Source of the DNA: a virus
Virus record (IMG/VR): IMGVR_UViG_3300018036_001638
Location: 1 to 22,454 of that record
Reading direction: 5' to 3' (one strand)
Length of the DNA: 22,454 nt
In this document: positions 2,426 through 17,413 of the stretch, one piece after another
How the letters are laid out: each line of letters begins with the position of its first letter
Numbering within the stretch: the first letter of the stretch is position 1
Position numbers and translations under genes: made by a program
The notes under the pieces: generated by a model
What the model was told of the DNA's origin: nothing
The model's input: the letters and a program-made list of their open reading frames with translations, nothing else
The model's database searches: none

Positions 2426-3127
2426 ATGCGCAGGATTAACACAGGAACAGTTGGAAGACCTCTACTAGCACGATTGGTGAGTGTTGACAACAAATTATCT
2501 AGTCTAGTTCCGAATGAAAATATTACAATAGAACCAAATGGCTCAGGTGATGTTATTATTCCAGCGAATCCGCAATTACTAGTACAAAATACCACAGCAG
2601 CAAGTTCAACATCAACAGGTTCACTTGTAGTAAGTGGAGGAATAGGTGTTGCGGCAAATAGTTATTTCGGCGGCAATATAAACGCTTCAGGGCATTTAAC
2701 ATCACAATATTTAACAGCGGCAGCTTCAACACATATGACAATACCAAGTGGTACAACAGCACAACGCCCCGGCTCTCCGTCCGAAGGCTTTGTACGTTTT
2801 AACACTGATTATGGTCATTTAGAATGGTATACTGGTTCAGCTTGGACAGTAGGCGGATTTCAAAACGTTGCTGTTACAGGCGGAAGAACAACATTAAGTT
2901 GGCAAACAAACTGGGTACAAGGTAACCACACAGTTACACTACCAAGTTCGCCAGCACAAGGTGATAGAGTTAGATTTTTCTTAGTAAGCGGATCCAACTT
3001 TACAGTTGCTAGGAATGGTAAATTAATTAACGGTGACGCATCAAACCTAACAGTTACAACAGAAGATGCAGCGTTTGAAATGGTGTTCCACAATAACACT
3101 TACGGATGGCGTATCTTTACAATCTAA
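2426..3127 (+). CDS. Tail-fibre-like protein, 233 aa
   Basis: ATG 2426 follows an AAGGAG site. Residues ~50-90 contain the tail-fibre segment TSTGSLVVSGGIGVAANSYF, a form repeated in long fibres of T4-like marine phages. Residues ~109-127 contain GTTAQRPGSPSEGFVRFNT, a short motif common just before the distal domain of phage fibres. The C-terminal part (about 145-233) is a beta-rich tip with NFTVARNGKLINGDASNL and a closing GWRIFTI, like small receptor-binding tips with surface loops. No cysteine is present, in sharp contrast to the three genes that follow. Position between a baseplate-like gene and three putative adhesins supports a tail-fibre role. The receptor is unknown. Assignment as a fibre is confident; being a short tail fibre versus a distal fibre segment is open. 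Confidence 0.82.
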   Translation: MRRINTGTVGRPLLARLVSVDNKLSSLVPNENITIEPNGSGDVIIPANPQLLVQNTTAASSTSTGSLVVSGGIGVAANSYFGGNINASGHLTSQYLTAAASTHMTIPSGTTAQRPGSPSEGFVRFNTDYGHLEWYTGSAWTVGGFQNVAVTGGRTTLSWQTNWVQGNHTVTLPSSPAQGDRVRFFLVSGSNFTVARNGKLINGDASNLTVTTEDAAFEMVFHNNTYGWRIFTI

Positions 3128-3142: not shown

Positions 3143-3925
3143 ATGGCAACTTACGATAGTTATAAAAAAGTTACAAATGAACAAATCATTGATGGTACAG
3201 TTACCGAAGATAAAATGGCAACTGGTACTAGACATAGATTATGTACAAAGTGGCTAATCGGTAACGCATGTCGTTGCTCAGCAGGTTGTTGTTGTTTATG
3301 GACAGTACCAGCATGTACTAGACGTGTACATTTTGAATTATGGGCAGCAGGCGGTAACGGAAATGGTGCATGTTCATGTAATAGATGTCATCATTATCAA
3401 GGCGCAGGCGGCGGCTCTTATAACCAAAAATCAATTAGTACCTCACCAGGATGTACATATAGAATGTGTGCAGGTGGAGTATACAGATGTTTGAGTAGAA
3501 ACTGTTCTGCTTGTAACGGATGTATTTCATATGTTTGCGGATACAATGCTTGTCAACTATGTACAGTGGGCGGACGTTGTGCAAACGCCAACACAGATTG
3601 GACAAACTATTGTTTCAGTTGTTGGGGTTGTTGTATTGGACCAGGATGCGGAACAGGCAGAGGGCAAATGCACATTATGAGTCACATAGGACATTTTAGT
3701 GGTATTTTTAACTGTCACTGTCACCATCAATATGTTAGACCAACAGCAGCACCTATGCTAGGCGGACAAGTTTCGATGTCACAATCAGTATGTTGGATAC
3801 GTTGTGGTTGTTGGATTGCACCTCCAGGACATGGTGGACAAGGTGCTATGTCATCATACTGTGGACGTTGCTGTGGCCAAGGTGGTACAGGCGGACCAGG
3901 AGTAGTAAAATTAACATTTACGTAA
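3143..3925 (+). CDS. Cysteine-rich glycine-rich putative tail adhesin, paralogue 1
   Basis: 260 residues with 33 cysteines (about 1 in 8) and clustered histidines. ATG 3143 is preceded by AGGAG. The N end (MATYDSYKKV...IIDGTV) is shared with both following genes and looks like a virion-attachment segment. After it come CRCSAGCCCLWTVP (43-56), FELWAAGGNGNG (64-75), ACSCNRCHH (77-84), a CTYRMCAGGVYRCLSRNC block (104-121), NCHCHHQ (190-196), CWIRCGCW (217-224) and CGRCCGQGGTGGPGVVKLTF near the C end. The W.VP...(E/D)LWGAGG.G start and GGTGGPG(V/L)VK(L/V)TY end match the general layout of phage glycine-rich tail/adhesin domains, but with Cys at many positions. Cysteine could be disulphide-bonded or metal-binding; neither is shown. 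No signal peptide. Role as a virion adhesin is inferred from context and the glycine-rich frame. The function is unknown. Confidence 0.85.
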   Translation: MATYDSYKKVTNEQIIDGTVTEDKMATGTRHRLCTKWLIGNACRCSAGCCCLWTVPACTRRVHFELWAAGGNGNGACSCNRCHHYQGAGGGSYNQKSISTSPGCTYRMCAGGVYRCLSRNCSACNGCISYVCGYNACQLCTVGGRCANANTDWTNYCFSCWGCCIGPGCGTGRGQMHIMSHIGHFSGIFNCHCHHQYVRPTAAPMLGGQVSMSQSVCWIRCGCWIAPPGHGGQGAMSSYCGRCCGQGGTGGPGVVKLTFT

Positions 3926-3935
3926 GGAATTATTA

Positions 3936-4715
3936 ATGGCAAGTTATGCAAGTTATAAAAAGGTACACGGCGACCAAATGGTTAATGGAACATTAACTGA
4001 TAATGATATTAATACAAATACATTATATAATTACGGTGTAAAGTGGATATCAGGTGTACCATGCAGATGCAGTAGCGGTTGCTGTTGCAACTGGACTGTA
4101 CCTACTGGCGTATGCAGATTAACTATAGATTTATGGGGAGCAGGTGGCAACGGATCAGGTGCTTGTTCATGTAATAGATGTCATCACTTTAAAGCAGCAA
4201 TGGGCGGAAGCCATAATACTAAATCATTAGGAACAAGACCAGGTTGTACATATAGATTATGTGCAGCAGGTGTTTATAGATGTCTAAGTCGTAACTGTAC
4301 AAGTTGTAACGGATGTACAACTTACGCAAATGGATATAATTTATCAGGATTTTGTGCTTGTGGAGGATACAGAGCAGAAGCAAATACTTCATGGTCAACA
4401 GCATGTTTCTATACAAATGTATATTGTAGATGTCCAACACACAACAATGGCGAAATGTATGTTGTTCCAAACAACCCAGGATGGTCAACAGCATCAGGAT
4501 ATTGTCATTGTCACCCACAAGAAATACACCAAGGTGTTGCACCAATAATTGGCGGAACAAGTTCACAAGGCATTAGACAATGTTGGATACGTTGCGGCAA
4601 CTTTAGTGTACCATACGGAACAGGCGGACAAAGTGCAATGAATACTTATTGCGGACGTTGCTGTGGACAAGGCGGCACCGGCGGCGGTGGCTTAATTAGA
4701 GTAACATATATTTAG
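3936..4715 (+). CDS. Cysteine-rich glycine-rich putative tail adhesin, paralogue 2
   Basis: 259 residues, 27 cysteines; starts at ATG 3936, 10 nt after the previous stop, with an AAGGA site. It shares the framework of its neighbours: N-terminal MASYASYKKV, CRCSSGCCCNWTVP, LWGAGGNGSGACSCNRCHH, CTYRLCAAGVYRCLSRNC, CNGC, YCHCHPQE, CWIRCG and YCGRCCGQGGTGG. It is the most diverged copy. It lacks the cysteine before the first cluster, the GCCIGPGC-type cluster and one cysteine of the CWIRCGCW motif (here CWIRCGNF). Framework cysteines are conserved while the middle (about 130-195) varies, which is what one would expect of a conserved scaffold with a variable surface. The order of events in the triplication cannot be set by eye. 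Confidence 0.85.
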   Translation: MASYASYKKVHGDQMVNGTLTDNDINTNTLYNYGVKWISGVPCRCSSGCCCNWTVPTGVCRLTIDLWGAGGNGSGACSCNRCHHFKAAMGGSHNTKSLGTRPGCTYRLCAAGVYRCLSRNCTSCNGCTTYANGYNLSGFCACGGYRAEANTSWSTACFYTNVYCRCPTHNNGEMYVVPNNPGWSTASGYCHCHPQEIHQGVAPIIGGTSSQGIRQCWIRCGNFSVPYGTGGQSAMNTYCGRCCGQGGTGGGGLIRVTYI

Positions 4716-4723
4716 GAACAAAC

Positions 4724-5533
4724 ATGGCAAGTTATAGAAGTTATAAAAAAGTTACAGGGGCACAAGTAGTTGACGGAGCAGTTGATGCAAACAACTTTGC
4801 AGCAGGAGTGAGAGACAACTGGTGTGTGAAATGGACATGGGGAAATCCGTGTAGATGTTCAGCTGGTTGTTGTTGTTTATGGACAGTACCTAGTCAAGTA
4901 CGTAACTTAAACTTTGAACTATGGGGTGCTGGCGGCAACGGCGCAGGAGCATGTTCTTGTAACAGATGTCAACACTTTGGACCTCCAGGCGGAGGAGCAT
5001 ACACAAGTAAATCTATAACTACAACATCTGGTTGCACATATAGAATGTGTGCTGCGGGTGTTTATAGATGCCTAAGTAGAGAATGTAACGGCTGTAATGG
5101 TTGTTCATCTTTTGTATGTGGATCAGGAATTTGTGTATGTGCATGTGGTGGACAAAGAGGTTGTGCAAACAGTTCTTGGACAGATAACTGTCACTCTAGT
5201 ATGCCATATTGTGTCAGACCAGGATGTAACGGTACAAGTGCAAGTGGAGACTATGTAGGTTATACACACGGTGGTAACTTCCAGGGTGCTTCAGCTTATA
5301 TGTATCCAGGCAGTGCTTGTCACTGTTGGAAACACATAGGACACTCATCAGGTGCTGTAGCAATGAATACAGGACACGCAGAACAGAATTCAAACTATTG
5401 CTGGATTAGATGCGGATGCTGGATTGCACCATATGGCCAAGGCGGCCAGAGTGCAACATCAAACTATTGTGGTAGATGCTGTGGTCAAGGCGGTACAGGC
5501 GGGCCAGGACTAGTAAAATTAACATACTATTAA
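4724..5533 (+). CDS. Cysteine-rich glycine-rich putative tail adhesin, paralogue 3
   Basis: 269 residues, 31 cysteines; ATG 4724, 8 nt after the previous stop, with an AGGA site inside the upstream stop region. It carries the same framework: MASYRSYKKV, CRCSAGCCCLWTVP, LWGAGGNGAGACSCNRCQH, CTYRMCAAGVYRCLSREC, CNGCNGC, ACHCWKHIGH, YCWIRCGCWIAP and YCGRCCGQGGTGGPGLVKLT. It is closer to paralogue 1 than paralogue 2 is: both keep CWIRCGCWIAP and an HIGH(F/S)SG segment. Its variable middle is longer, with GNFQGASAYMYPG. It is followed by a late-promoter-like motif and then a tail-assembly-chaperone-like gene, consistent with a distal tail component. Function is inferred, as for the other two copies. 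Confidence 0.85.
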   Translation: MASYRSYKKVTGAQVVDGAVDANNFAAGVRDNWCVKWTWGNPCRCSAGCCCLWTVPSQVRNLNFELWGAGGNGAGACSCNRCQHFGPPGGGAYTSKSITTTSGCTYRMCAAGVYRCLSRECNGCNGCSSFVCGSGICVCACGGQRGCANSSWTDNCHSSMPYCVRPGCNGTSASGDYVGYTHGGNFQGASAYMYPGSACHCWKHIGHSSGAVAMNTGHAEQNSNYCWIRCGCWIAPYGQGGQSATSNYCGRCCGQGGTGGPGLVKLTYY

Positions 5534-5569: not shown

Positions 5570-6298
5570 ATGCCTATGATACAATTTAACTACACGTACA
5601 ACGTTCCAAACGAACTGTGTGTAGACCATACTTTTACAGATGGAAATACAAGAACGGCTCAGTACGATGGACCTGATAAAATTTTCTTCATTGTTAACAA
5701 CGAAACAGGTAGAGAAGAATTAGGACCAATAACTGAGATAGAAAAAAATGACGGACGTCCAATTCCAGATAATTGCAGATATGTTGAAGTAGATGCAACA
5801 GAATATCCAGAGTTATGCCAATTACGCGGGCCAGTAATTGACGAAATGGAAGAAGATCATACCAGTGACGCAACGCCAACAGGAGCAACTAAGGTTGCAG
5901 GATATGCACCTTTCACATATCAAACACCAGTATTGCCATATCAATTTTTAGATTCAGAGAAGGTTACTTTTGACGCAGATGGAGTCCCAACTATACCAGT
6001 TAAAGAACCAAGAGACACTGTAATGGGAATTGACATTGAAAGAGATATAACTTGGGACGATGTAAGAGCAAAACGTAATCAGTTTTTGAAAAACAGTGAT
6101 AGTGAAATAACTGACGACATGCCAGCTGATCTAAGAACTCAATGGTTAGACTATCGTCAAAGATTACGTGACTGGCCAACTGTAATGCAAAACGCTGGTG
6201 TATCACCATTATTTGCATATTACATGGAACCAATTCAAGTTGGAGCAGATCCAGAAACAGGAATGGTTGATCCAGATACAGATACAGTCGTAATGTAA
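5570..6298 (+). CDS. Tail protein with C-terminal tail-assembly-chaperone-like domain, 242 aa
   Basis: ATG 5570 sits 11 nt after AGGAG; a second in-frame ATG at 5576 is a possible alternative. The N-terminal half is acidic and beta-rich with no recognised motif. Residues ~162-203 read WDDVRAKRNQFLKNSDSEIT then MPADLRTQWLDYRQRLRDWP. This matches the phage tail-assembly-chaperone pattern in which an R..RN.LL..SD signature is followed by W..YRQ.LRD.P. In many phages such proteins are encoded directly after the fibre or adhesin gene they help fold or attach, and here the gene follows three putative adhesins. I infer that it assists assembly of those adhesins or the fibre. The C-terminal tail is acidic (DPDTDTVV). 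It is the last gene before a strong hairpin terminator. Confidence 0.75.
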   Translation: MPMIQFNYTYNVPNELCVDHTFTDGNTRTAQYDGPDKIFFIVNNETGREELGPITEIEKNDGRPIPDNCRYVEVDATEYPELCQLRGPVIDEMEEDHTSDATPTGATKVAGYAPFTYQTPVLPYQFLDSEKVTFDADGVPTIPVKEPRDTVMGIDIERDITWDDVRAKRNQFLKNSDSEITDDMPADLRTQWLDYRQRLRDWPTVMQNAGVSPLFAYYMEPIQVGADPETGMVDPDTDTVVM

Positions 6299-6427: not shown

Positions 6428-7450
6428 TTGACAAGATCTACAGCATTTTTTATTAACGGTGGCGCAGGACGTGTGATATGTTCTTTGCCTGCTTTCGAAT
6501 TATACGAAAAAGAAAATCCAGATGATGACTTTATTATTGTATGCGAAGGTGGTATGGACTTTTACAAAGGTCATCCTACACTACATAATAGAGCATATGA
6601 CCATTGGCACAAAGGACTGTTTGAAGAACATATAAAAGACAGAGATTGTGTAACCCCTGAACCATACAGAGTTTGGGAATACTATAATCAAAAATGTGAT
6701 CTTACACAAGCATTTGATATAGCAATCAATAATAAAGGATTACGTAAAGTAGGCGATCCAAAAATATTTACAAACAAGCAAGAAATTGTACAGGCTGCAA
6801 CTATTGTTGAAGAAATAAAACAAGGAACAGGAAAAGACAAAGTCTTAGTTGTTCAGCCATTTGGTAGAACTACAGAAACACACGGCGACTTTATTGTTGA
6901 CCCTACAAGTAGAAGTTTTCAACTTAATAATATTGTAGACATTATTAATATTCTAAAAAAAGAATATGCTGTTATTATAATGAGTGAGATACCTGTACCG
7001 TTAGAAGAAAAAGAAAATAAAGAATATCCAGTTGCACAGCCACAAATACCTGACTTGCGTATATGGGCAGGTGTTATTGATGTAGCAGATCATTTCCTAG
7101 GTTGCGATAGTTTAGGTCAGCATATGGTAAAAGCATTAGGTGGCACAGCAACTATTATAACAGGATCAACGTATCCAATAAACATATCATATCCTGATGA
7201 TCCTAAGTTTGATATTATAGATGTAGGTGACGGGAAACGTGTATATGCGCCAATACGTTTAACTATGGAAGAAGAACAAGATAGGCATAACGATGAAGTT
7301 ATGGAACTAACAACAAAACAAATAGATGAAATTTGTAATAGTGTAAGAAAACATTTAGGCAAAGGTGCAACAACAAAAGTACCTGAAACTAAAAAACAAA
7401 TGCAAAAATTAGTGCCTGGTAATACTAATTTAATTGGAGATAAAAAATAA
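6428..7450 (+). CDS. GT9 (heptosyltransferase)-like glycosyltransferase
   Basis: 340 residues. The start is TTG at 6428, chosen because AAGGAG (6416-6421) lies 6 nt upstream and the N-terminal glycine motif FINGGAGRVICSLPAF would be lost from any later start (the next Met is residue 43). That motif resembles the G.GD.l...P loop of GT-B heptosyltransferases. Residues 223-239 (FLGCDSLGQHMVKALGG) match the GT9 donor-site signature, roughly (F/I)GxDSGxxHxAxAxG. Members of that family transfer heptose from ADP-heptose to LPS core in the cytoplasm. Three ADP-heptose biosynthesis genes downstream make a heptose donor plausible. The C-terminal 35 residues are Lys-rich and probably outside the fold. 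It is the first gene of the island and overlaps the carbamoyltransferase by 1 nt (TAATG). The fold call is good; donor and acceptor are inferred. Confidence 0.7.
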   Translation: MTRSTAFFINGGAGRVICSLPAFELYEKENPDDDFIIVCEGGMDFYKGHPTLHNRAYDHWHKGLFEEHIKDRDCVTPEPYRVWEYYNQKCDLTQAFDIAINNKGLRKVGDPKIFTNKQEIVQAATIVEEIKQGTGKDKVLVVQPFGRTTETHGDFIVDPTSRSFQLNNIVDIINILKKEYAVIIMSEIPVPLEEKENKEYPVAQPQIPDLRIWAGVIDVADHFLGCDSLGQHMVKALGGTATIITGSTYPINISYPDDPKFDIIDVGDGKRVYAPIRLTMEEEQDRHNDEVMELTTKQIDEICNSVRKHLGKGATTKVPETKKQMQKLVPGNTNLIGDKK

Positions 7451-9255
7451 TGAGTCAATGGATTGCTGCAATTACAAGAGGACACAACGGAGGCGTATGT
7501 TTACTTAAAGACGGCAAAATTGTATTTGCTATTGAAGAAGAAAGACTAAGTAGACAAAAATACGATGGCGGTCCATATGCGTCTATGGTTAAAATTTTAG
7601 ACTATACTGACAAGATTGATTTCCTAGTTATTGCACATACACAACCAGTTTCAGAAACAGCAGGCAAAGTAGACTTTACAGGTGACGATGTTTATACAGG
7701 ACTTGCACGTAAACTAGGATTAATTGATAATAGTCCAAGCATAGATGTACTAAATCATCCGCAAGTAGTTGATTTGAGTCATATACATCATAAGTTACAT
7801 GCAGCTTGTGCATTTTATAGAAGTGGTTTCGAAACAGCAACAGCAGTAATTGTTGATGGCGCCGGTACATTTATTCCCGCACAAATGGACGGCTGGGATA
7901 ATATGTTATATGAATTAGAAAGTATTTTTACATGCGAGTATCCATATAAAATAAAAACTATTTGGAAACACTTAGGCGGTAATGGTCCGTTTAGAGCTGC
8001 ACACGTACCAGAAATGACAAGCGAAAAGTTTGATGAAGAAGGCACACACGATGTTATTATTGATGACGGAGCAGGTATTGTAAAAGCATACGAAGCTGTA
8101 ACACAGTACTGTGGATTTACAGCAATTGAAGCAGGTAAAACTATGGGGCTTTCGCCTTATGGTAAACCTAACGGAAATATCCCTCCTATATATCATGATG
8201 CAGGAGGAGATTGGACTGTAGCAAACGCTAATTTAATTAGGCCAACTTATCCAAATGGTGCTTTAGTAAATGAAAACTTTTTTAAAGAATTACATACACC
8301 ACATAACACTCCGCAAAAAGAGTTAGTTGATTTAGACAACAGAAGAGATTTAGCATATGCACTACAGACTGAAAGCCAACAACAAGTTTTAAAATTAATT
8401 TTAAATGCAGTAGAACGTACAGGTAATAAAAATGTTGTAGTAAGTGGCGGCTATGGGTTAAACTGTGTTGCTAATTATTACTATTTAGACACCTTAAAAG
8501 ATATGGATATTAACTTATATGTTGAGCCAATATCAAGTGATGCTGGTACAGCAATTGGTGCAGCACTTATTGCATACCACCAAACATCGCAAAACAAACA
8601 AGTATTACCTTTTGGTGAAAGTTTATACTTAGGTTTAAATTATACTTATAACGATAAAGAAATAGGACATACAGCAGACAAATATAATGCTACATTAGAA
8701 AAAGTAGAAATGGCAGATGTAGTTAAGTTAATGATAGATAAAAATATTGTTGCTATGTTCCAAGGACGTTCAGAAGCAGGTCCTAGAGCTTTAGGAAATA
8801 GAAGTCTTATGTACGATCCAACAGATCCTAATGGTAAGGATCATGTGAATAAAGTTAAACGTAGAGAGTACTTCCGACCATTTGCTGGTACTATATTAGC
8901 AGAACATGCTGAAGAATGGTTTGACATGCGTGGAATGAAAGAATCACCACACATGATGTATGCAATGAATTGTCAACCTGGTGTAGAAGAAAAGATACCT
9001 AGTATTATACACGTTGACGGCACATGCCGTATACAAACATTAACAAGAGAACAGAATCCATTATACTATGACTACATTAATGAATTCTATAAACAGACAG
9101 GTGTTCCTATTATATTCAACACATCATTTAACTTAGGTGGAGAACCTTTAGTTGAAACATTAGATGATGCTTTTAGAACTCTTGCTAATAGTGACATTGA
9201 ATATCTGTACATAGCAGAACACGGAATTTTAGCAAAGGTAGAAAATGTTAGTTAA
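7450..9255 (+). CDS. O-carbamoyltransferase, NodU/CmcH family
   Basis: 601 residues, the usual length of the family. These enzymes transfer a carbamoyl group from carbamoyl phosphate, via carbamoyl-AMP, to a hydroxyl on a sugar or antibiotic. Visible landmarks in order: GHNGG (11-15), AIEEERLSR (27-35), the metal/substrate motif HHKLHAACAFY (113-123), VIVDGAG (133-139), GKTMGLSPYGK (229-239), SGGYGLNCVAN (332-342), SSDAGTAIGAAL (362-373), then the C-terminal domain with GRSEAGPRALGNRS (439-452), VKRREYFRPFAGTIL (469-483), TCRIQT and FNTSFNLGGEPLVET (556-570). All expected motifs are present, so the enzyme is probably active. It overlaps the next gene by 11 nt. A target sugar such as heptose is suggested only by context. 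Confidence 0.93.
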   Translation: MSQWIAAITRGHNGGVCLLKDGKIVFAIEEERLSRQKYDGGPYASMVKILDYTDKIDFLVIAHTQPVSETAGKVDFTGDDVYTGLARKLGLIDNSPSIDVLNHPQVVDLSHIHHKLHAACAFYRSGFETATAVIVDGAGTFIPAQMDGWDNMLYELESIFTCEYPYKIKTIWKHLGGNGPFRAAHVPEMTSEKFDEEGTHDVIIDDGAGIVKAYEAVTQYCGFTAIEAGKTMGLSPYGKPNGNIPPIYHDAGGDWTVANANLIRPTYPNGALVNENFFKELHTPHNTPQKELVDLDNRRDLAYALQTESQQQVLKLILNAVERTGNKNVVVSGGYGLNCVANYYYLDTLKDMDINLYVEPISSDAGTAIGAALIAYHQTSQNKQVLPFGESLYLGLNYTYNDKEIGHTADKYNATLEKVEMADVVKLMIDKNIVAMFQGRSEAGPRALGNRSLMYDPTDPNGKDHVNKVKRREYFRPFAGTILAEHAEEWFDMRGMKESPHMMYAMNCQPGVEEKIPSIIHVDGTCRIQTLTREQNPLYYDYINEFYKQTGVPIIFNTSFNLGGEPLVETLDDAFRTLANSDIEYLYIAEHGILAKVENVS

Positions 9256-9886
9256 TGGAAAAGAAGCAAAAGACTTATCTGGAATAGATTTAGCAGAGGA
9301 TCAAATGATTGTTATTGATGATTTGTTCCCACAATATATTATTGAACATACACATGATTTAGTGTTCAATGGTTACAATTGGTTTTATGGACACACAAGT
9401 AACTATCCAGAAGACCCAAAAACAGACGTAGGCGCTATACCTGATTGGCCAGAAGTTCCTGCATTCAAACAACAAATTTATCCTCCACAAAGTCCTACAG
9501 CAAGTGATTCTGTATGGAGCATGATCTATAATGCTGTAGCACAAATGATTCCTTTTGAATTAGAAGTAGGAGAAATACTAGTAAACGGACAACAGTGGAT
9601 ACATAACACTACACCACATTCAGACTGTACTTGTGATAACGGTATCAGTTGGATATACTATGTAAACAGAGAATGGAAAGAAGAATGGGGCGGAGAAACT
9701 GTAATTCAATTAGACGGCGAATGGAAAAAAGTTTATCCTAAGCCAGGACGTATTTTCTTATTCAAAGGTAAAATTCCACATCATGGATTACCACCAAACG
9801 ATTCATACAAAGGATTACGTGCAACACTTGTATACAAAACAATGAGAGCTCAACCATTACCAGCGGCCCAACCCTGGAGAACATAA
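9245..9886 (+). CDS. 2OG-Fe(II) oxygenase (prolyl-4-hydroxylase-like)
   Basis: 213 residues from ATG 9245, overlapping the carbamoyltransferase end. The double-stranded beta-helix signature is clear: PHSDCTCDNGISWIYYVN gives H125 and D127 of the HxD iron pair, then WGGETVI (148-154), PKPGRIFLFKGKIPHHG (165-181) with the distal histidine at 179 or 180, and R192 in GLRATLVYK for the 2-oxoglutarate carboxylate. All facial-triad and co-substrate residues are present, so activity is plausible. Substrate unknown: such enzymes hydroxylate proteins or small molecules, and T4-like cyanophages commonly carry several. The stop overlaps the next ATG as TAATG. Confidence 0.85.
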   Translation: MLVNGKEAKDLSGIDLAEDQMIVIDDLFPQYIIEHTHDLVFNGYNWFYGHTSNYPEDPKTDVGAIPDWPEVPAFKQQIYPPQSPTASDSVWSMIYNAVAQMIPFELEVGEILVNGQQWIHNTTPHSDCTCDNGISWIYYVNREWKEEWGGETVIQLDGEWKKVYPKPGRIFLFKGKIPHHGLPPNDSYKGLRATLVYKTMRAQPLPAAQPWRT

Positions 9887-10401
9887 TGCGACACGAAATC
9901 TTTAGTGTTCCTGTATTCATAGACACTGTTGATTTAGAAAAAATTAACATAAGTGATGAAGAAACTGAGCCTACGTGGCTAAGTGAAACACCAAGCACAT
10001 TTACAAAAGAACACAAAATTGCACCAGAAACATTTGAATACTTAGTTAGTATCATTTCATCTAACTTGCAAAATCTTGTTGGTCCTAATCCAAGATTTGG
10101 TCCTATTTGGCGTAACAAGTACAAAGAAAATGATTGGCAGGATATACATATTCATCCTAACAGTGCTTGGAGTTTTATAATATACGAAACTGTAGAAGAA
10201 TCAAAAACTGTGTTTATGAATCCTATGTTCAAGGATATTCAAAATCATTTGGGCACAAATGTTGAAGGATTTCCTTTAGATTTTAGACCAGAATTAAAGA
10301 CAGGAGATATGATAATATTTCCAAGTTTCTTAGAGCATTTTGTTAGGCCAGGCTCTATAGGCTCAACTATAAGCGGCAACATATATATGGACTACGAATG
10401 A
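9886..10401 (+). CDS. Putative 2OG-Fe(II) oxygenase-like protein with atypical site
   Basis: 171 residues starting within TAATG at 9886. The layout resembles the short 2OG-oxygenase-like family also represented at 12835: IFSVPVF at the N end, WRNKYKENDWQDIHIHP (75-91), and GDMIIFPSFLEHFVRPG (140-156) as the distal strand with H151. The first metal motif is HIHPN (H88, H90) with no HxD aspartate. The usual arginine near the C end is absent: the segment reads GSTISGNIY. It may bind metal in a different way or be inactive. It overlaps HldE by 4 nt (ATGA), so it is translated with it. Fold assignment moderate; enzymatic activity uncertain. Confidence 0.6.
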   Translation: MRHEIFSVPVFIDTVDLEKINISDEETEPTWLSETPSTFTKEHKIAPETFEYLVSIISSNLQNLVGPNPRFGPIWRNKYKENDWQDIHIHPNSAWSFIIYETVEESKTVFMNPMFKDIQNHLGTNVEGFPLDFRPELKTGDMIIFPSFLEHFVRPGSIGSTISGNIYMDYE

Positions 10402-11549
10402 AAGTTTTAGTAATTGGTGATATAATTTTAGACAAATATATTTACGGAACTAGCACACGTATTAGTCCAGAAGCGCCTGTGCCTGTAGTAACACATCTAC
10501 AAGAAAAAACTACAATGGGTGGAGCAGCACTAGTTTATGATAATTTAAAAAGTCTCGGTGTAGATGTAGAGATGTATGACACACTAGAAGATCATAGTGT
10601 CAAAACTAGGATTATTTGTGACGGACATTACATTACACGTATTGATGAAGATAAAGATGCAGACTCAAATGCTGTGCTACAAAGAATAAAACAAGCGGAC
10701 TTTTCAGCTTATGATATTGTTATTCTAAGTGATTATGATAAAGGCACATTGGACAACGCAAAAAAAATTATAAAACATATTAACAAATTTAATTGTAAAG
10801 TTATAGTTGATCCAAAACGCTTTGCACACGATTATCAAGGTGCTTGGTTAGTAAAACCTAACAATAGTGAATATTATAAATTTGAATTTGACGACTGGAA
10901 GGGTAACATTATTACAACTGATGCAGGACATAGTGTAAGTGCCAAAATAGATGATAAAGAATATACTGTGCCTGTAGAAACAGTTGAAGTGTCTGATGTT
11001 ACTGGAGCAGGCGATTGTTTTATGGCTGGATTTGTATACGGATTAACAAAAGGATATCCATATAAGAAATGCTTGGAAGTTGCTGTAAAAGGCTCTACCG
11101 AAAGCGTAAAGCATGCAGGTACTTATATACTTAAAAGAGAAGATGTAGAACATACTGTAGTGTTTACTAATGGAGTGTTTGATATACTACATATTGGCCA
11201 TTTAAAGCTTCTAAGACACGCTAAAACGCTTGGAAATAGGCTTATAGTGGGTATTAACAGCGATGCAAGTGTAAAACGCTTAAAAGGCAATTTAAGACCC
11301 ATTAACGGAGAAGACACCCGCAAGGAAAGCCTCTTAGAGCTTGGTTTTGTTGACGATGTAATTGTGTTTGAAGAAGATACACCATTAGAAGCAATTACCA
11401 AATTAGAGCCAGATATTATAGTAAAAGGTGGAGACTACACAGTAGATACTGTAGTAGGTAATGAACTAGCAGAAGTAGTAATTTTCCCTACAGTAGAAGG
11501 ACATAGCACTACAAGGATTATAGATGAAGATACTAATAACAGGTCATAA
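10398..11549 (+). CDS. hldE: HldE: bifunctional heptose-7-phosphate kinase / heptose-1-phosphate adenylyltransferase
   Basis: The N-terminal domain (1 to ~250) is a ribokinase-type sugar kinase: TRISPEAPVPVV (20-31), GGAA (41-44), LSDYDKGTL (110-118), VDPK and catalytic TGAGD (202-206, base D206). The C-terminal domain (254-376) is a cytidylyltransferase-like nucleotidyltransferase: TNGVFDILHIGH (257-268) with the HxGH signature, INSDASVKRLKG (286-297), FEEDTP and VKGGDY. Compared with my recollection of E. coli HldE, the match is close across both domains. The known role is to phosphorylate D-glycero-D-manno-heptose 7-phosphate at C1 and later adenylylate the 1-phosphate to ADP-heptose. At 383 residues it is about 95 shorter than the 477-residue E. 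coli enzyme, losing part of the kinase and the interdomain linker. It overlaps HldD by 26 nt. Confidence 0.93.
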   Translation: MKVLVIGDIILDKYIYGTSTRISPEAPVPVVTHLQEKTTMGGAALVYDNLKSLGVDVEMYDTLEDHSVKTRIICDGHYITRIDEDKDADSNAVLQRIKQADFSAYDIVILSDYDKGTLDNAKKIIKHINKFNCKVIVDPKRFAHDYQGAWLVKPNNSEYYKFEFDDWKGNIITTDAGHSVSAKIDDKEYTVPVETVEVSDVTGAGDCFMAGFVYGLTKGYPYKKCLEVAVKGSTESVKHAGTYILKREDVEHTVVFTNGVFDILHIGHLKLLRHAKTLGNRLIVGINSDASVKRLKGNLRPINGEDTRKESLLELGFVDDVIVFEEDTPLEAITKLEPDIIVKGGDYTVDTVVGNELAEVVIFPTVEGHSTTRIIDEDTNNRS

Positions 11550-12330
11550 AGGTTTTATAGGACAAAATATGATGTCCTATTTAGAAACAAAGCACGAAGT
11601 TGCAGGTTATGATTTTGACCCTCAACAGTTACCATTAGTTAAAGATTACGATTGGGTTATTCATCTAGGAGCAATTAGTAGTACTACTGAAACAGATGTT
11701 GATAAAGTTATATTACATAATTATGAATTTACTAAATGGCTCTATAATCAATGTAATGCTTACAAAGTAAACATGCAGTATGCATCAAGTGCAAGTGTTT
11801 ACGGCGATACAAGACACTTTACAGAGTCTGGACCTAGTGATCCTAAAAGTCCTTATGCTTGGAGCAAGTATTTGTTTGACAGATGGGTAGGCGGAATGAA
11901 TCCGCAAATTATTGTACAAGGTTTTAGGTATTTTAATGTGTACGGTCCTAAAGAAGAACACAAAGGTAATCAATCAAGTCCTATACACAAGTTTACAGAA
12001 CAAGCAAAAACAGGTAAAATAATGTTATTTGAAAACAGCGAAAACTACAAAAGAGATTTTGTATGTGTAAGTGACATATGTGAAGTACATGAAAAAATGC
12101 TTGACATAAACGAGAAAGGAGTATACAATATAGGTACAGGAAATGCTATTAGTTTTAAACAAGTGGCTGATTTGATTGCAAAAAAATATAGTGCTGATAT
12201 TGAATATATACCCATGCCAGATAATTTAAAAGGACAGTATCAAGAATATACCTGTGCTAACTTAGATAGTTTAAGTAAATTAGTAAAACATAAATTTAAA
12301 AGTGTTGAGGAGTATGTAAATGAATGTTAA
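11524..12330 (+). CDS. hldD: HldD: ADP-L-glycero-D-manno-heptose 6-epimerase
   Basis: 268 residues of the extended SDR fold. The N end has GHKGFIG (7-13), the NAD(P)-binding GxxGxxG. Next come LGAISSTTE (48-56), YASSASVYG (86-94), the catalytic YAWSK (Y111, K115), GFRYFNVYGPKEEHKG (133-148), FENSENYKRDFV (169-180) and EYIPMPDNLKGQYQEYT (227-243). The SSTTE, EEHKG and SENYKRDF segments are specific to the ADP-heptose epimerase and separate it from other nucleotide-sugar epimerases. The lysine in EEHKG (147) corresponds to the second catalytic base reported for E. coli HldD, by my alignment. The enzyme inverts C6 of ADP-D,D-heptose. It is about 40 residues shorter than E. coli HldD. The start at ATG 11524 lies inside hldE and the end overlaps the next gene by 11 nt. 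Confidence 0.92.
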   Translation: MKILITGHKGFIGQNMMSYLETKHEVAGYDFDPQQLPLVKDYDWVIHLGAISSTTETDVDKVILHNYEFTKWLYNQCNAYKVNMQYASSASVYGDTRHFTESGPSDPKSPYAWSKYLFDRWVGGMNPQIIVQGFRYFNVYGPKEEHKGNQSSPIHKFTEQAKTGKIMLFENSENYKRDFVCVSDICEVHEKMLDINEKGVYNIGTGNAISFKQVADLIAKKYSADIEYIPMPDNLKGQYQEYTCANLDSLSKLVKHKFKSVEEYVNEC

Positions 12331-12838
12331 TTTAGTTGTTACAGATGATTTTTTACAAAATCCAGATCATGTAAGAGAACAAGTATTACAACTTCCTTTT
12401 GAAAGAGACGGTGGATTTCCAGGCATGCGTACTGATGGAGCCGATGAAGAATACCAAAGATATATTCAGCAGAAAATAGAAGCTATTTTAGGTGTAAACA
12501 TCACAGCATGGAAAATGGATAGTTTTTGTTTTCAATTATGTACGGAAGATGTTGCTACTTGGGTACACAGAGACGAAGGTGTAGATTGGGCAGGAGTATT
12601 ATACCTTACTCCAGACGCACCTAAAGAAGCGGGCACAGGAATTTTTACTGAACCTAAGCCGGGTGAATTTGAATTACAAGATGCTATAGCAAACAAATAC
12701 AACAGACTAATTTTGTATAGAGCAGATTCTTTACACAGTAGTTTGTTATCTGGATTTGGCGATAGCAAAGAAACAGGAAGATTAACACAGGTATTTTTCT
12801 TTGATACAAAAGGAGATCCAGGAGGTGGCTGGGTATGA
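12320..12838 (+). CDS. 2OG-Fe(II) oxygenase-like protein (DUF6445-like)
   Basis: 172 residues. ATG 12320 follows GAGGAG (12307-12312) inside the end of hldD. The N end, VVTDDFLQNPDHVREQVL then GGFPGMRT, and the end of the fold, RLTQVFFFDT, match the pattern of a family of 2OG-oxygenase-like proteins seen in marine bacteria and phages that I know as DUF6445. Likely metal ligands are H83 and D85 in WVHRDEG and H139 in SLHSS, with R154 in GRLTQ in the 2-oxoglutarate position. LYLTPDAP and GGTG-like GTGIF follow the usual pattern. The triad looks complete. Substrate unknown. It overlaps the next gene as ATGA. Confidence 0.72.
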   Translation: MNVNLVVTDDFLQNPDHVREQVLQLPFERDGGFPGMRTDGADEEYQRYIQQKIEAILGVNITAWKMDSFCFQLCTEDVATWVHRDEGVDWAGVLYLTPDAPKEAGTGIFTEPKPGEFELQDAIANKYNRLILYRADSLHSSLLSGFGDSKETGRLTQVFFFDTKGDPGGGWV

Positions 12839-13473
12839 TAGTAAATGGTAAAACACAAGGCCTATGGCCAACTTGGGTATATGAAGCAAAGGTAGAAAAA
12901 CAGGAAGAAATTTTAAAGGAGTTTGCTCCCTATTTAAATGATGACAGTTTTTTTGAAGATACTTGGATATACGGAAGTTGTCGTAGTAGTATTAGAAGCA
13001 AAAAGAATGATGCTTTGCCTTGGCAAGTTTTTTTTGAAAATATTCGTCCATACACACAACAGTATTTTGACGACATGCAACCAATGATGCCTTACAGTAT
13101 TACTTGTGAGGAGTTTTGGGTAAACACTTATAAAGAACATGACTACCAAGAGATACATGACCATGCATTTCCAGGACGTACAATTAGTGCCGTGTATATT
13201 TTAGAATTACCAGAAGGTGAAGATATAGGCGGACAATTAGTATTAGATTGTCCAAATTATAATATTATACAATCTTCAGGAATGGAGCAAATCTTTAATC
13301 AATGGCAGTATCAAAGATTTATTCCTGAATTAGAACCAGGTAAATTAATTCTGTTTCCTAGTTGGATTCCGCATTATGTTTTACCTAACAAGACAAACAA
13401 AAGGCGTGCTACTATAGCGGCTAATTTTAAAATAGAGGCGGCAACACATGACGAAACTGAACGGCTTAGTTGA
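12835..13473 (+). CDS. Putative 2OG-Fe(II) oxygenase
   Basis: 212 residues. ATG 12835 has a strong GGAGGT site at 12821-12826 within the previous gene. Core segments: FWVNTYKEHDYQEIHDHAFPG (within 94-114) with H108, D109 and H110 as candidate ligands, TISAVYILELP (116-126), and EPGKLILFPSWIPHYVLP (167-184) with H180. KRRATIAANF (189-198) supplies R190/R191. This is the general design of the short putative 2OG oxygenases found in marine phages (for example those captured by TIGR02466), and is better preserved here than in the gene at 9886. Overlap with the cupin gene is 26 nt. Substrate unknown. Confidence 0.7.
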   Translation: MIVNGKTQGLWPTWVYEAKVEKQEEILKEFAPYLNDDSFFEDTWIYGSCRSSIRSKKNDALPWQVFFENIRPYTQQYFDDMQPMMPYSITCEEFWVNTYKEHDYQEIHDHAFPGRTISAVYILELPEGEDIGGQLVLDCPNYNIIQSSGMEQIFNQWQYQRFIPELEPGKLILFPSWIPHYVLPNKTNKRRATIAANFKIEAATHDETERLS

Positions 13474-13810
13474 AAAAGGTTGGGGTAGTGAAACAATATT
13501 TGCTACTAATGATCTATATTGCGGTAAACTACTAAACTTCAATGAAGGTGCTAAATTTAGCATGCATATGCATAAAGAAAAAGATGAAACTTGGCATGTA
13601 CTAAGTGGTAGCTTTATATTGAAAACAATAGATACAACTACAGCAGATGTAAATGTAGAAACATTAAACAAAGGAGATACAAAGCATATACCTCCTATGT
13701 TACCGCATCAACTTATGTGTGTAAAAGCAGGATCGATTATTGAAGTAAGCACACCTGATAGTGTTGAAGATAATTATAGAGTCGAAAAAGGTGATAGTCA
13801 AAATGTCTAG
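13448..13810 (+). CDS. Cupin, mannose-6-phosphate-isomerase type
   Basis: 120 residues with a complete cupin site: FSMHMHKEKDETW gives H40, H42 and E47, and MLPHQL gives H87. VEKGWGSE at 8-15 and STPDSVEDNYRVEKGDSQ at the end match the single-domain cupins related to the C-terminal half of bifunctional mannose-1-phosphate guanylyltransferase/mannose-6-phosphate isomerase. Such proteins isomerise or bind phosphosugars. In this island it could act on a sugar-phosphate precursor, and the missing GmhA isomerase step is one possible link, but GmhA is a SIS-fold enzyme and not a cupin. Its true substrate is unknown. The start lies inside the previous gene. Confidence 0.82.
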   Translation: MTKLNGLVEKGWGSETIFATNDLYCGKLLNFNEGAKFSMHMHKEKDETWHVLSGSFILKTIDTTTADVNVETLNKGDTKHIPPMLPHQLMCVKAGSIIEVSTPDSVEDNYRVEKGDSQNV

Positions 13811-14618
13811 AACATTGTTTGTTGGTTGTAGTCATACTATGGGTTATCGGGGAGTTATTCCTGGTAAAAATAATGAAGAATGTTCGCAACCAAATACATG
13901 GGGACCTAACAACTATGCAGAATTTTACAGTAAAAATAATAACAAAAAATGTGTTGTAATGGCAAGTGCAGGCACAGGTAATAGAGTATATCCTAGATTT
14001 TTAGCACACGCATTTCAAACATATGATGATATAGACGAAGTGTTTATTCAAAGCACGTATTGGGGTAGATTTCCTATTGTTATTAATCCTGATTTAGATC
14101 CTACAGAAATATTTCCTGTAGATTTTTTCTTACAAAAAGATTCAAGTGACGAACTTGCTGATAGGTGGAGTATAGCACTAAGCGTAGATAACAAATATCT
14201 TGAACATTATCTTAAACCTCAACCACAGGATTGGGAAATAATGCCGTACAATAGAGATACATTGCCTTGGGTATCAGAACCTGATACAAGACGTAGTTCT
14301 CATATGTATTTCCAGATGTGGCATTACCAAAATACGCATTTGGAACAAGAAGATTATTTTAAAGACATTGCCGTGTGTGATATGATATGTAATAACAATA
14401 ATGTACCTATGTACGTCTGGAATATTAATAATAGATGTTTTATACCACAAGAAACAGCCAACTACTTTACAAAATTAAACAAAACAAAGTTTGCAAGTCA
14501 AAATGCCGAAACATTTTTTAATAAAAAGTTTGAAACATTAGACGGTGAACATTATACTGAAGAAGTGCATAAACAGATTGCAGAACAGTATATACCAATG
14601 TTAAAGGAAGCACAATGA
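13803..14618 (+). CDS. SGNH/GDSL-hydrolase-like protein
   Basis: I place the start at ATG 13803 (271 residues), which overlaps the cupin stop by 8 nt. The frame is open to a GTG at 13761, but that would add a Lys/Ile-rich tail in front of the natural N end MSRTLFVGCSHTMG. The first block has the nucleophile motif GCSHT (S10), the second MASAGTGNR (G57, N60), and the last DGEHYTEEVH (D247, H250, the DxxH pair). This order is that of SGNH hydrolases, which remove or transfer acyl groups on sugars and lipids. No signal peptide, so action is cytoplasmic. A role in O-acetyl editing of the island's glycan is inference. It overlaps the next gene as ATGA. Confidence 0.72.
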   Translation: MSRTLFVGCSHTMGYRGVIPGKNNEECSQPNTWGPNNYAEFYSKNNNKKCVVMASAGTGNRVYPRFLAHAFQTYDDIDEVFIQSTYWGRFPIVINPDLDPTEIFPVDFFLQKDSSDELADRWSIALSVDNKYLEHYLKPQPQDWEIMPYNRDTLPWVSEPDTRRSSHMYFQMWHYQNTHLEQEDYFKDIAVCDMICNNNNVPMYVWNINNRCFIPQETANYFTKLNKTKFASQNAETFFNKKFETLDGEHYTEEVHKQIAEQYIPMLKEAQ

Positions 14619-15193
14619 AAGATGACCACAACGGAATAGAAGTATACCCAAACATATACGAAAAAGAATATTGCGATGAAATTATAAAACATTTTAATAT
14701 TATGGCACGTAACAAAGTTACATATAACCAAAATAATTTAGAAGTGAATCAAGATAATAGAATTGTATTTGACTGGGCACATACACAAAACCAATATCAT
14801 TATGATTATAATTTATGTGATTATTTCTATAAAAAATTACACGATACATATACTGAGCAATATATGGAAAAATATCAAATGCTAAAGCAAAGTGAACAAC
14901 ACAGTCCTAAAGGTATGAGTATACAAAAGACTTTGCCTCATCAAGGATATCACGCCTGGCATGCAGAAGCTGCTGATATTGGATCTTGTTCAAGAGTTAT
15001 GAACTACATGTTATACCTTAACGATGTTGAAGAAGGCGGCGAAACAGAATTTTTATACCAAGGTGTTAAACTTAAACCTACAGCTGGTTCCCTTGTGATT
15101 TTCCCAACAAGTTATATGTATCCACACAGAGGAAACCCTATATACACAGGTGAGAAATATATAATTACAGGTTGGTATACCTATGATAGATAA
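14615..15193 (+). CDS. 2OG-Fe(II) oxygenase, prolyl-4-hydroxylase type
   Basis: 192 residues, ATG 14615 after AAAGGAAG. Segments in order: YHAWHAEAAD (112-121) with H116 and E118, so the usual HxD is HxE; RVMNYMLYLNDVEEGGETEF (127-146), the standard second-strand signature; LKPTAGSLVIFPTSYMYPHRG (153-173) with distal H171; and K181 in GEKYIITGW, where prolyl-4-hydroxylases have their 2-oxoglutarate-binding lysine. This is the best match in the window to the phage P4H-like proteins. Activity is plausible although Asp is replaced by Glu. Substrate unknown. The last 11 nt overlap the phosphatase gene. Confidence 0.85.
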   Translation: MKDDHNGIEVYPNIYEKEYCDEIIKHFNIMARNKVTYNQNNLEVNQDNRIVFDWAHTQNQYHYDYNLCDYFYKKLHDTYTEQYMEKYQMLKQSEQHSPKGMSIQKTLPHQGYHAWHAEAADIGSCSRVMNYMLYLNDVEEGGETEFLYQGVKLKPTAGSLVIFPTSYMYPHRGNPIYTGEKYIITGWYTYDR

Positions 15194-15779
15194 ACATAAA
15201 GTTGTTACAGCAGCCCCAACACTTCCTACACAATGCGTAATTGGTTTAGATAGAGACGGAGTAATTAATAGAGATTTGGGTACATATGTAAAGTCTGCAG
15301 ATCAATTTGAGCCTATTGAAGGAAGTTTAGAAGCAATAGCAAAATTACGTAGACTAGGACATAGAATTGTAATACTTACAAACCAAGGTGGTATTGCAAA
15401 AGGCGTACTTACAAATGAACAGGTAGAATCTGTACACGCACACATGCTTAACTTATTTGGCGAAGCAGGCTGTCCTAGTATTGAAGGAATATATTACAGT
15501 GAAAGTAGTCAAAAAAATGATATGTATGCGAAACCTAACGCTGGTATGTTTAAACGCTGTGCAAAAGAAATCAAAGGCGTAAAATGGTCACAAGGATTTT
15601 TTGTTGGTGATAAAATGAGTGATTTAAAAGCAGCAATGAAGGTAGGAGCAAGGCCTGTGCTTGTTAGAACCGGATACGGACTAGAAACTGAAAAACAGCT
15701 AAATAAGTATACATATAGAGAAATTAAAAAGAAGACATATGTATTTGACAGTTTAGCTGAATTTGCAGATCAGCTATAA
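15183..15779 (+). CDS. gmhB: HAD phosphatase, GmhB-like (heptose-1,7-bisphosphate 7-phosphatase)
   Basis: 198 residues. HAD motifs in order: GLDRDGVIN (21-29, nucleophile D23 and acid/base D25), LTNQGGIAKG (65-74), KPNAGM (117-122) and VGDKMSDLKAA (141-151, D143 and D147), then VLVRTGYG (159-166). The order and wording fit the GmhB/histidinol-phosphatase (HAD-IIIA) group. The known role of GmhB is to remove the 7-phosphate from heptose 1,7-bisphosphate between the two HldE reactions. The zinc loop (CxH...CxC) of canonical E. coli-type GmhB is missing: the corresponding region IYYSESSQKNDMYAKPN has no cysteine. Because HldE and HldD are in the same island, a GmhB role is likely, with another sugar phosphatase as the alternative. 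It is the last island gene; the late-promoter motif overlaps its stop. Confidence 0.78.
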   Translation: MIDKHKVVTAAPTLPTQCVIGLDRDGVINRDLGTYVKSADQFEPIEGSLEAIAKLRRLGHRIVILTNQGGIAKGVLTNEQVESVHAHMLNLFGEAGCPSIEGIYYSESSQKNDMYAKPNAGMFKRCAKEIKGVKWSQGFFVGDKMSDLKAAMKVGARPVLVRTGYGLETEKQLNKYTYREIKKKTYVFDSLAEFADQL

Positions 15780-16150: not shown

Positions 16151-17413
16151 ATGGCATTACCAGTAGCACCCGTATTCGATAGAGTAAGATTAGTTCCGCG
16201 ACCTAACGATTTTTTAAATAGAAACGTAGGGTCCAGCGGAGAAATATTCTACGAAAAAGAAACCAAAACTCTAAGAGTCTATAACGGATTAGAAAGAGGC
16301 GGCTTTGAAATAGTAAGCCAAGATAGGTTGCGGGTCAATGCCGCAAATGCAGAAGTAGCAACAGTAAAATATAATGTTACTGTAGGAACAGCAGGTGCCG
16401 GAAACAAATATATCTTTAATGGTGATGGAGTTCTACAACCAGAACTACAATTTGTTGTAGGATATACATATCTATTTGATCAATCAGATCAAACAAATTT
16501 ATATTTTCCAAATCCAGAAGGCGGTGCTATTAATCAACACCCACTTAATTTTAGTTCTGATAATTTAAACGGAACATTAGGCGGGGGTACAAGTTACGAT
16601 GACGGAGTTGTTTACTTACTTGAAGGACTAGAAGTTACACAAGCACAATACTGGAACAACTTTTCGCGTTCTGTAAAACGTGAAGTACAGATTACAATAA
16701 CATCTTCTACGCCTACTACATTATATTATTGGTGTCAAAAGCATCTTAACATGGGTGCATCAATTACTATAGGAGCGCCAGGCGCAGGTAGTGGAGCAAG
16801 TTTAGAAGTCAGCGATACAGCACCAGAAAATCCTAGTGCAGGAAGTATTTGGTATGATAGCACAACAGGATATTTGTATGTCTATATTGAAGATGCAGAC
16901 AGCAATCAATGGGTACAACCAGTAGCTGGAAATATTTTCAGTGGCGATTACAACGATTTAAGTAATAAGCCAACTATATTTGACGGTAACTATTCAAGTT
17001 TAGTTGGAGCACCTACCATACCTTCAAGTTTAACTGATTTAGGAATATCAGACGGTACAGCAGATCAGATTTTGACTACAGACGGAGCTGGTAACTTTAC
17101 CTTCCAAGATGCAACTGGCGGTGGTAGTTCTTATGATCAAAGTTTAAACACAACTGATTCAGTAACTTTTGCAAGTATTAGTTCACCAACATTTTTAAAT
17201 AGTGGAACTGGTGTTACTAATCTAACAAGTGCAAGTACCCTAACATTACAAGCTGTAGATGTTGTAAGAGTAACAGGCTCTCCTTTTAGATTACCAAGTT
17301 TTACTACAGTAGAAAAAAGTGCCTTGAGTGCTGTTAATGGTGATATGGTATATGATAGTGATTTAAATAAAGCACAAGTTTATGAAGGCGGTGCTTGGGC
17401 GAGCTTAGTATAA
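16151..17413 (+). CDS. Tail protein with cupredoxin-like domain, 420 aa
   Basis: ATG 16151 follows AAGGAA. The N end (1-65) has FLNRNVGSSGEIFYEKETKTLRVYNG, a beta segment of the kind that starts many marine phage fibres. Residues ~70-207 form a cupredoxin-like domain: VGYTYLFDQSDQTN (103-116), QHPLNF (H130) and TTLYYWCQKHLNMGASI (C195, H198, M201). H...C-x2-H-x2-M is the type-1 copper ligand set, with the amicyanin-like C-x2-H-x2-M spacing. Residues ~225-320 contain fibre-type segments such as GSIWYDSTTG, GDYNDLSNKPTI and SLTDLGISDGTA. The end (VEKSALSAVNGDMVYDSDLNKAQVYEGGAW) is of a form common at fibre ends. It overlaps the protease gene by 1 nt (TAATG). Metal binding is suggested by residues, not shown. 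Confidence 0.8.
   Translation: MALPVAPVFDRVRLVPRPNDFLNRNVGSSGEIFYEKETKTLRVYNGLERGGFEIVSQDRLRVNAANAEVATVKYNVTVGTAGAGNKYIFNGDGVLQPELQFVVGYTYLFDQSDQTNLYFPNPEGGAINQHPLNFSSDNLNGTLGGGTSYDDGVVYLLEGLEVTQAQYWNNFSRSVKREVQITITSSTPTTLYYWCQKHLNMGASITIGAPGAGSGASLEVSDTAPENPSAGSIWYDSTTGYLYVYIEDADSNQWVQPVAGNIFSGDYNDLSNKPTIFDGNYSSLVGAPTIPSSLTDLGISDGTADQILTTDGAGNFTFQDATGGGSSYDQSLNTTDSVTFASISSPTFLNSGTGVTNLTSASTLTLQAVDVVRVTGSPFRLPSFTTVEKSALSAVNGDMVYDSDLNKAQVYEGGAWASLV
16358..16771 (+). other. Cupredoxin-like domain with complete copper ligand set
   Basis: This is the domain-coding segment of the 420-residue tail protein. The ligands by position are H130, C195, H198 and M201. The domain is of ordinary cupredoxin length (~138 residues), and the motifs occur in the order of type-1 copper proteins. 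A second, independent case is encoded at 21164-21502. Confidence 0.65.

Follow-up and report, generated by a model that had tools for sequence, protein, structure and literature searches.

We analysed a window of 22,454 nucleotides (IMG/VR virus record IMGVR_UViG_3300018036_001638, positions 1 to 22,454), in which three cysteine-rich genes stand in tandem between tail-fibre genes and a fibre chaperone gene. The genes considered here are as follows.

1-2079, + strand: tail fibre protein, C-terminal part, running off the window (phrog_9851 tail fiber protein, E 4e-50)
2095-2415, + strand: tail-fibre-associated protein of 106 aa, no Cys (phrog_11338 tail fiber, E 1.8e-12)
2426-3127, + strand: 233-aa protein, no Cys (phrog_31104 match over residues 27-229)
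3143-3925, + strand: Cys-rich paralogue 1 (P0001), predicted TNF-like/glycine-rich fibre tip (phrog_4205, E 4.5e-38)
3936-4715, + strand: Cys-rich paralogue 2 (P0002), predicted fibre tip (phrog_4205, E 3e-46)
4724-5533, + strand: Cys-rich paralogue 3 (P0003), predicted fibre tip (phrog_4205, E 7.8e-44)
5570-6298, + strand: tail-fibre assembly (Tfa/APC-type) chaperone (PF16778 Phage_tail_APC, 29.3 bits, cut-off 26.6)

An earlier, sequence-only reading of this DNA had described three tandem paralogues with 27-33 Cys each, and the ORFs lie exactly at the three positions that it gave. All three are complete, encoding 260 aa with 33 Cys (P0001), 259 aa with 27 Cys (P0002) and 269 aa with 31 Cys (P0003). 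The motifs quoted in that reading were all found, with small departures in copy 1, which has ELWAAGG and ends in KLTFT. Cys makes up 10.4-12.7% of the triplet proteins compared with a mean of 0.85% in the 20 other window genes checked and 0-0.2% in the remaining tail genes; this contrast and the conservation of the Cys columns among homologues indicate that the richness is not due to chance. Megablast of the whole window against phage records gave no match, and the profile of phrog_4205, a family of unknown function, covers all three copies in full, from residue 1 to the end. Among nine close relatives, the dN/dS of the triplet was 0.05-0.19, showing that these are real genes under purifying selection. 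The central region, which had been singled out as variable and as a sign of host-range diversification, does vary more between clades than the frame does, but its dN/dS of 0.12-0.19 is only slightly looser than that of the frame and similar to that of the neighbouring genes (0.08-0.17). Under such purifying selection, neither a hypervariable centre nor host-range diversification there is supported.

Relatives of the triplet proteins are encoded by 282 stretches in IMG/VR, 80 of which were kept for analysis. Related proteins, at about 54% identity, are present in Synechococcus phages S-SSM7, S-SSM6a and Sf-FS3, with P-SSM2 matching weakly. Three family types were distinguished. Type A, to which the window and S-SSM7 belong, comprises 82 distinct sets, each of exactly three copies; no set with two or four copies was found except where a set was cut by a contig end. 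Type B (S-CAM3) has three copies of about 300-330 aa with 24-38 Cys; some type B loci show fewer copies under one filter, and the resampled ones have the third copy unless cut. Type C (P-SSM2, Salacisavirus) has two copies of about 355 aa with 27-38 Cys, and a Cys-free gene of about 225-243 aa stands between the two Cys-rich genes. At a sampled locus of this type (L003:11035-11709), the Cys-free gene encodes 225 aa, lies between rather than after the Cys-rich pair and is chaperone-like by position, with no PHROG match. That the three types are homologous is supported by a match of phrog_4205 to the P-SSM2 proteins (E 3.7e-20) and by an hhalign alignment to S-CAM3_102 (98.2%, E 5e-14). The P-SSM2 proteins match phrog_35878 too; members of these two families come from S-SSM7, Sf-FS3 and P-SSM2, to which S-CAM3 was added by homology. 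Cys at positions 82, 109, 116, 139, 163 and 226 (numbering of window copy 3) are common to most sampled members of the three types. All relatives examined were Cys-rich, and a scan of viral contigs revealed no Cys-poor intermediates.

The major capsid protein of the window's clade is 69% identical to those of Sinorhizobium phage Phosso and Vibrio phage 2.275.O and 67% identical to those of Pseudomonas PA5oct-like phages, while its portal is 52% identical to that of Phosso and 50% to those of PA5oct-like phages. Both proteins, taken from the contig of locus L004, are therefore closest to those of jumbo T4-like phages and not to those of cyanophages. S-SSM7, S-CAM3 and P-SSM2, in contrast, belong to the Kyanoviridae, and their related blocks hold two or three copies. 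Related tip modules thus occur in two distantly related phage lineages. As a host marker, psbA was present on 1 of 14 contigs, none of them of the window's clade, the contigs being incomplete. Contigs assigned to Actinomycetota, Rhodobacteraceae and Flavobacteriales MAGs also carry triplets (loci L047, L048 and L049); these are probably misbinned phage contigs.

The sequence-only reading had further proposed that the proteins are built on a glycine-rich phage tail (adhesin) frame, and structure prediction, profile matches and the flanking fibre and chaperone genes all agree with it. AlphaFold2 modelled copy 3 with a pLDDT of 75 and a pTM of 0.72 and, from a deeper alignment, copy 1 with a pLDDT of 85.5 and a pTM of 0.81. 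The top structural match for both was the Pam3 fibre 7ypx (copy 3, Z 17.6 over 193 residues at 2.7 Å; copy 1, Z 17.1 over 211 residues at 5.8 Å), followed by the Bxb1 tail tip (Z about 12) and the TNF-like plus glycine-rich domain of ALK/LTK (Z 8-10). When predicted viral proteins were searched by fold, S-CAM3 came first for both copies and P-SSM2 came third for copy 3 and second for copy 1. Pfam PF21722 (Gly_rich_2), a tail domain, matched 50 of 109 family members (best E 1.3e-8) and was covered whole by S-CAM3_102 at 33.9 bits, above the cut-off of 24.3 bits. The window copies differ from this domain in that many loop positions are Cys; copy 1 fell below the cut-off at 14.6 bits and copies 2 and 3 gave no match. 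Searching the PDB by sequence, with copy 3 or the A1 profile as query, returned nothing credible. A Cys periodicity of three residues, expected for polyglycine II helices, was tested and was absent. The Gp38 fold, the polyglycine II adhesin of the T-even gp38 type, is not among the PDB matches listed, which leaves kinship to gp38 possible. The 'Gp38' of Syn9 in the fold list was set aside, since its name probably counts ORFs and does not refer to T4 gp38.

The Pam3 fibre gp24 (PDB 7ypx, 7yfw) is trimeric; its TNF-like and glycine-rich receptor-binding domains bind the host, and it folds with the chaperone gp25 at a ratio of 3:3 (PMC9608196). The window copies are predicted to share this TNF-like plus glycine-rich fold (Z 17-17.6 to 7ypx), and a Tfa-type chaperone gene adjoins them as well. 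They differ from Pam3 gp24 in that the latter is the product of one gene and forms a homotrimer, whereas the window has three paralogues with about 30 Cys each. Pam3 gp24, with 39% glycine in its tip domain, also carries a long N-terminal helical docking domain, in place of which the window copies have only an N-terminal segment of about 30 residues; in their models, the only helices within residues 1-32 are 3 residues long. A fibre-tip (receptor-binding) fold of the triplet proteins is well supported. The literature searched yielded no virion proteomics or structure of the triplet proteins, and no paper on virion proteomics of S-SSM7 or S-CAM3.

The surrounding genes recur in the relatives. 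A homologue of the fibre gene at 1-2079 sits before the triplet in S-SSM7, and the 106-aa protein has homologues of the same size, P-SSM2 _302 and S-CAM3 _098, whose genes precede the Cys-rich ones. The phrog_31104 profile that matches the 233-aa protein also matches residues 1380-1473, a C-terminal domain, of the long S-SSM7 fibre; the product of 2426-3127 is a candidate docking partner. The chaperone matches phrog_9740 and several 'tail fiber assembly' PHROGs in addition to PF16778; a Tfa-type chaperone gene occupies the same position in S-SSM7, and S-CAM3 also has a gene at that place. Downstream, at 6428-15779, the window holds a sugar-modification block with a carbamoyltransferase, bifunctional heptose kinase/nucleotidyltransferase-like and epimerase-like genes, a HAD-type phosphatase-like gene, a cupin and several 2OG-Fe(II) oxygenases; S-SSM7, S-CAM3 and P-SSM2 have a similar block after their Cys-rich genes. 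An 838-aa protease-like protein (phrog_3677 protease) is encoded at 17395-19911, between fibre and baseplate-connector genes, and in P-SSM2 a PF00082 gene precedes the fibre genes.

The three copies behave as a unit. In the type A tree, each copy position groups by itself within each phage clade; in 216 of 216 cases, a copy has as its nearest neighbour the copy at the corresponding position of another phage, and the P0002-type copy is always the middle one. Pairwise distances are correlated between copies at 0.94 overall and at about 0.9 within clades. This fixed order, the fixed copy number and the correlated distances are the pattern expected of obligate partners, which is not proof of a complex. 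Since the three paralogues are distinct, hold fixed positions and always occur together, with intergenic gaps of 4-31 bp, a 1:1:1 heterotrimer is the most likely arrangement. A precedent is the tail of the DSLV2 virophage, in which three consecutive tail-protein genes, related to Synechococcus phage tails, give a 1:1:1 heterotrimer; it differs in having a T4 gp37-like fold, and the paper mentions no cysteine-rich or glycine-rich feature (PMC12724248).

Alternatively, each gene could encode an independent adhesin that forms homotrimers of its own, the three being mounted on separate fibres or serving as alternative tips and giving the phage several receptor specificities. Many phages carry several receptor-binding proteins, and the two copies in the P-SSM2 (Salacisavirus) family argue against three as a universal number. 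The homotrimeric state of Pam3 gp24 (PMC9608196) also favours this alternative. Independent adhesins, however, would be expected to turn over separately, whereas the number is strictly three and the order fixed, with no loss, gain or swap over 82 sets and strongly correlated distances. We regard three separate homotrimers as possible, though not likely.

At about 50% identity between the proteins, some 24 alignment columns hold Cys in >90% of 111 homologues, about 19 are invariant in an 81-sequence alignment, and 50 have Cys in at least 3 of 230 sequences. When conservation was set against the predicted secondary structure of copy 1, the conserved Cys fell mainly in glycine-rich loops and at strand ends. 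Several of them change together. C104 was lost where C134 was gained on five branches (independent pairs: 0 same, 6 opposite, 4 unchanged; p 0.03), and 228 of 230 sequences have Cys at exactly one of positions 141 and 162. Both C253 and C79 have disappeared from 15 sequences, nearly all of which lack C45 and C252 too, and residues 79 and 252 are both Trp where C79 and C252 are lost. Such linked loss, gain and exchange implies that the Cys have partners. This partnering fits disulphides, although linkage itself does not separate a disulphide from a metal site, and joint loss could stem partly from recombination between copies or from shared ancestry. Cys totals are odd in 121 of 230 chains, leaving at least one Cys per such set unpaired or paired elsewhere, so that some may be free or inter-chain. 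Nor did the totals per trio tend to be even, with 43 of 72 trios odd. No thioredoxin-fold gene was found on three contigs of the window's clade.

The earlier statement that such a Cys density is very unusual in a phage needs qualifying. Disulphides as such have precedents in virions: a network of them is present in Agrobacterium phage Milano (PMC10811340), and in Pam3 they attach the fibres to the baseplate (PMC10329688). The density itself does stand out, as Milano has 2.1% Cys spread over its structural proteins and the window family, with disulphides as yet predicted, about 10.6% in one tip family, about five times as much. In the literature searched, we found no phage tail protein family of similar Cys density.

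A second alternative is that the Cys and the invariant His of a CHC site bind zinc, iron or another metal in the cytoplasm during folding, making the tip a metal-cluster protein that possibly delivers or displays metal at the cell surface. The CC, CxC and CxxC clusters, the near-invariant His between two invariant Cys in CHC, His at positions 84 and 182 in about 80%, the replacement of C230 by His in 9 sequences, of a kind that a metal ligand could undergo, and the odd Cys counts all suit it. On the other hand, the co-lost Cys set gives way to Trp, aliphatic residues and Asn rather than to other ligands, a replacement pattern that favours disulphides over metal. No metal-binding family was matched, and the solved relatives of the fold are known as receptor-binding or ligand-binding domains. 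Iron bound through HxH, the motif of phage iron sites (PMC11705849), had been suggested, but just 88 of 230 members (38%) have an HxH anywhere; window copy 3 lacks one at its CHC site, and the site after the CHC His is not conserved. Another kind of metal site at CHC is possible, whereas the metal-cluster reading as a whole appears improbable to us. It is very improbable that the proteins are non-virion, secreted or intracellular glycine- and cysteine-rich factors (e.g. redox or metal buffers) merely near tail genes: their annotation as hypothetical proteins and the lack of a proteomic record in our searches would allow it, but they have a predicted tail-fibre fold, with fibre genes upstream and a fibre chaperone downstream in the window and in S-SSM7, and the layout in S-CAM3 is the same.

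Taken together, we consider it on balance likely that the triplet is a chaperone-folded trimeric fibre tip, probably a 1:1:1 heterotrimer, in which disulphides staple glycine-rich loops; heterotrimer and stapling are the most likely readings, and within this proposal the virion location, the heterotrimer, the disulphide state and receptor binding are what we infer, whereas the sequence features, the predicted fold, the gene order, the copy number and the partnering of the Cys are what the analysis shows. The products of the three genes would sit at the distal end of a tail fibre and form its receptor-binding tip. A chain would combine the short N-terminal segment with a TNF-like beta-sandwich and with extended glycine-rich loops arranged as a bundle, like those of Pam3 gp24, and the downstream Tfa-type protein would aid folding and trimerisation, with the three paralogues assembling 1:1:1 rather than as three homotrimers. 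Once the virion reaches oxidising seawater, the Cys would staple the glycine-rich loops within, and perhaps between, chains, producing a rigid, stable tip. Disulphide geometry is compatible with a strand spacing of about 5 Å. Adjacent glycine-rich motifs of Pam3 gp24 lie about this far apart (PMC9608196), and disulphides would thus suit the loops of a Pam3-type fold. We also entertain, as a doubtful extension, that the tip is an obligate heterotrimer whose dense disulphide lattice acts as a redox-controlled switch, setting or firing host recognition outside the cell.

This kind of fold is already known from the Pam3 fibre; the dense, conserved Cys and the tandem triplet are the new variation. 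The analysis assigns a likely role to phrog_4205 and phrog_35878, which previously had none, in the cultivable phages S-SSM7, S-CAM3 and P-SSM2. That two distantly related lineages of T4-like phages have this module may hint at a host surface common to both. If the disulphide-stapled heterotrimer is correct, it would reveal a way in which abundant marine phages make their receptor-binding head stable, and would show how an asymmetric recognition surface can arise from three genes in place of one.
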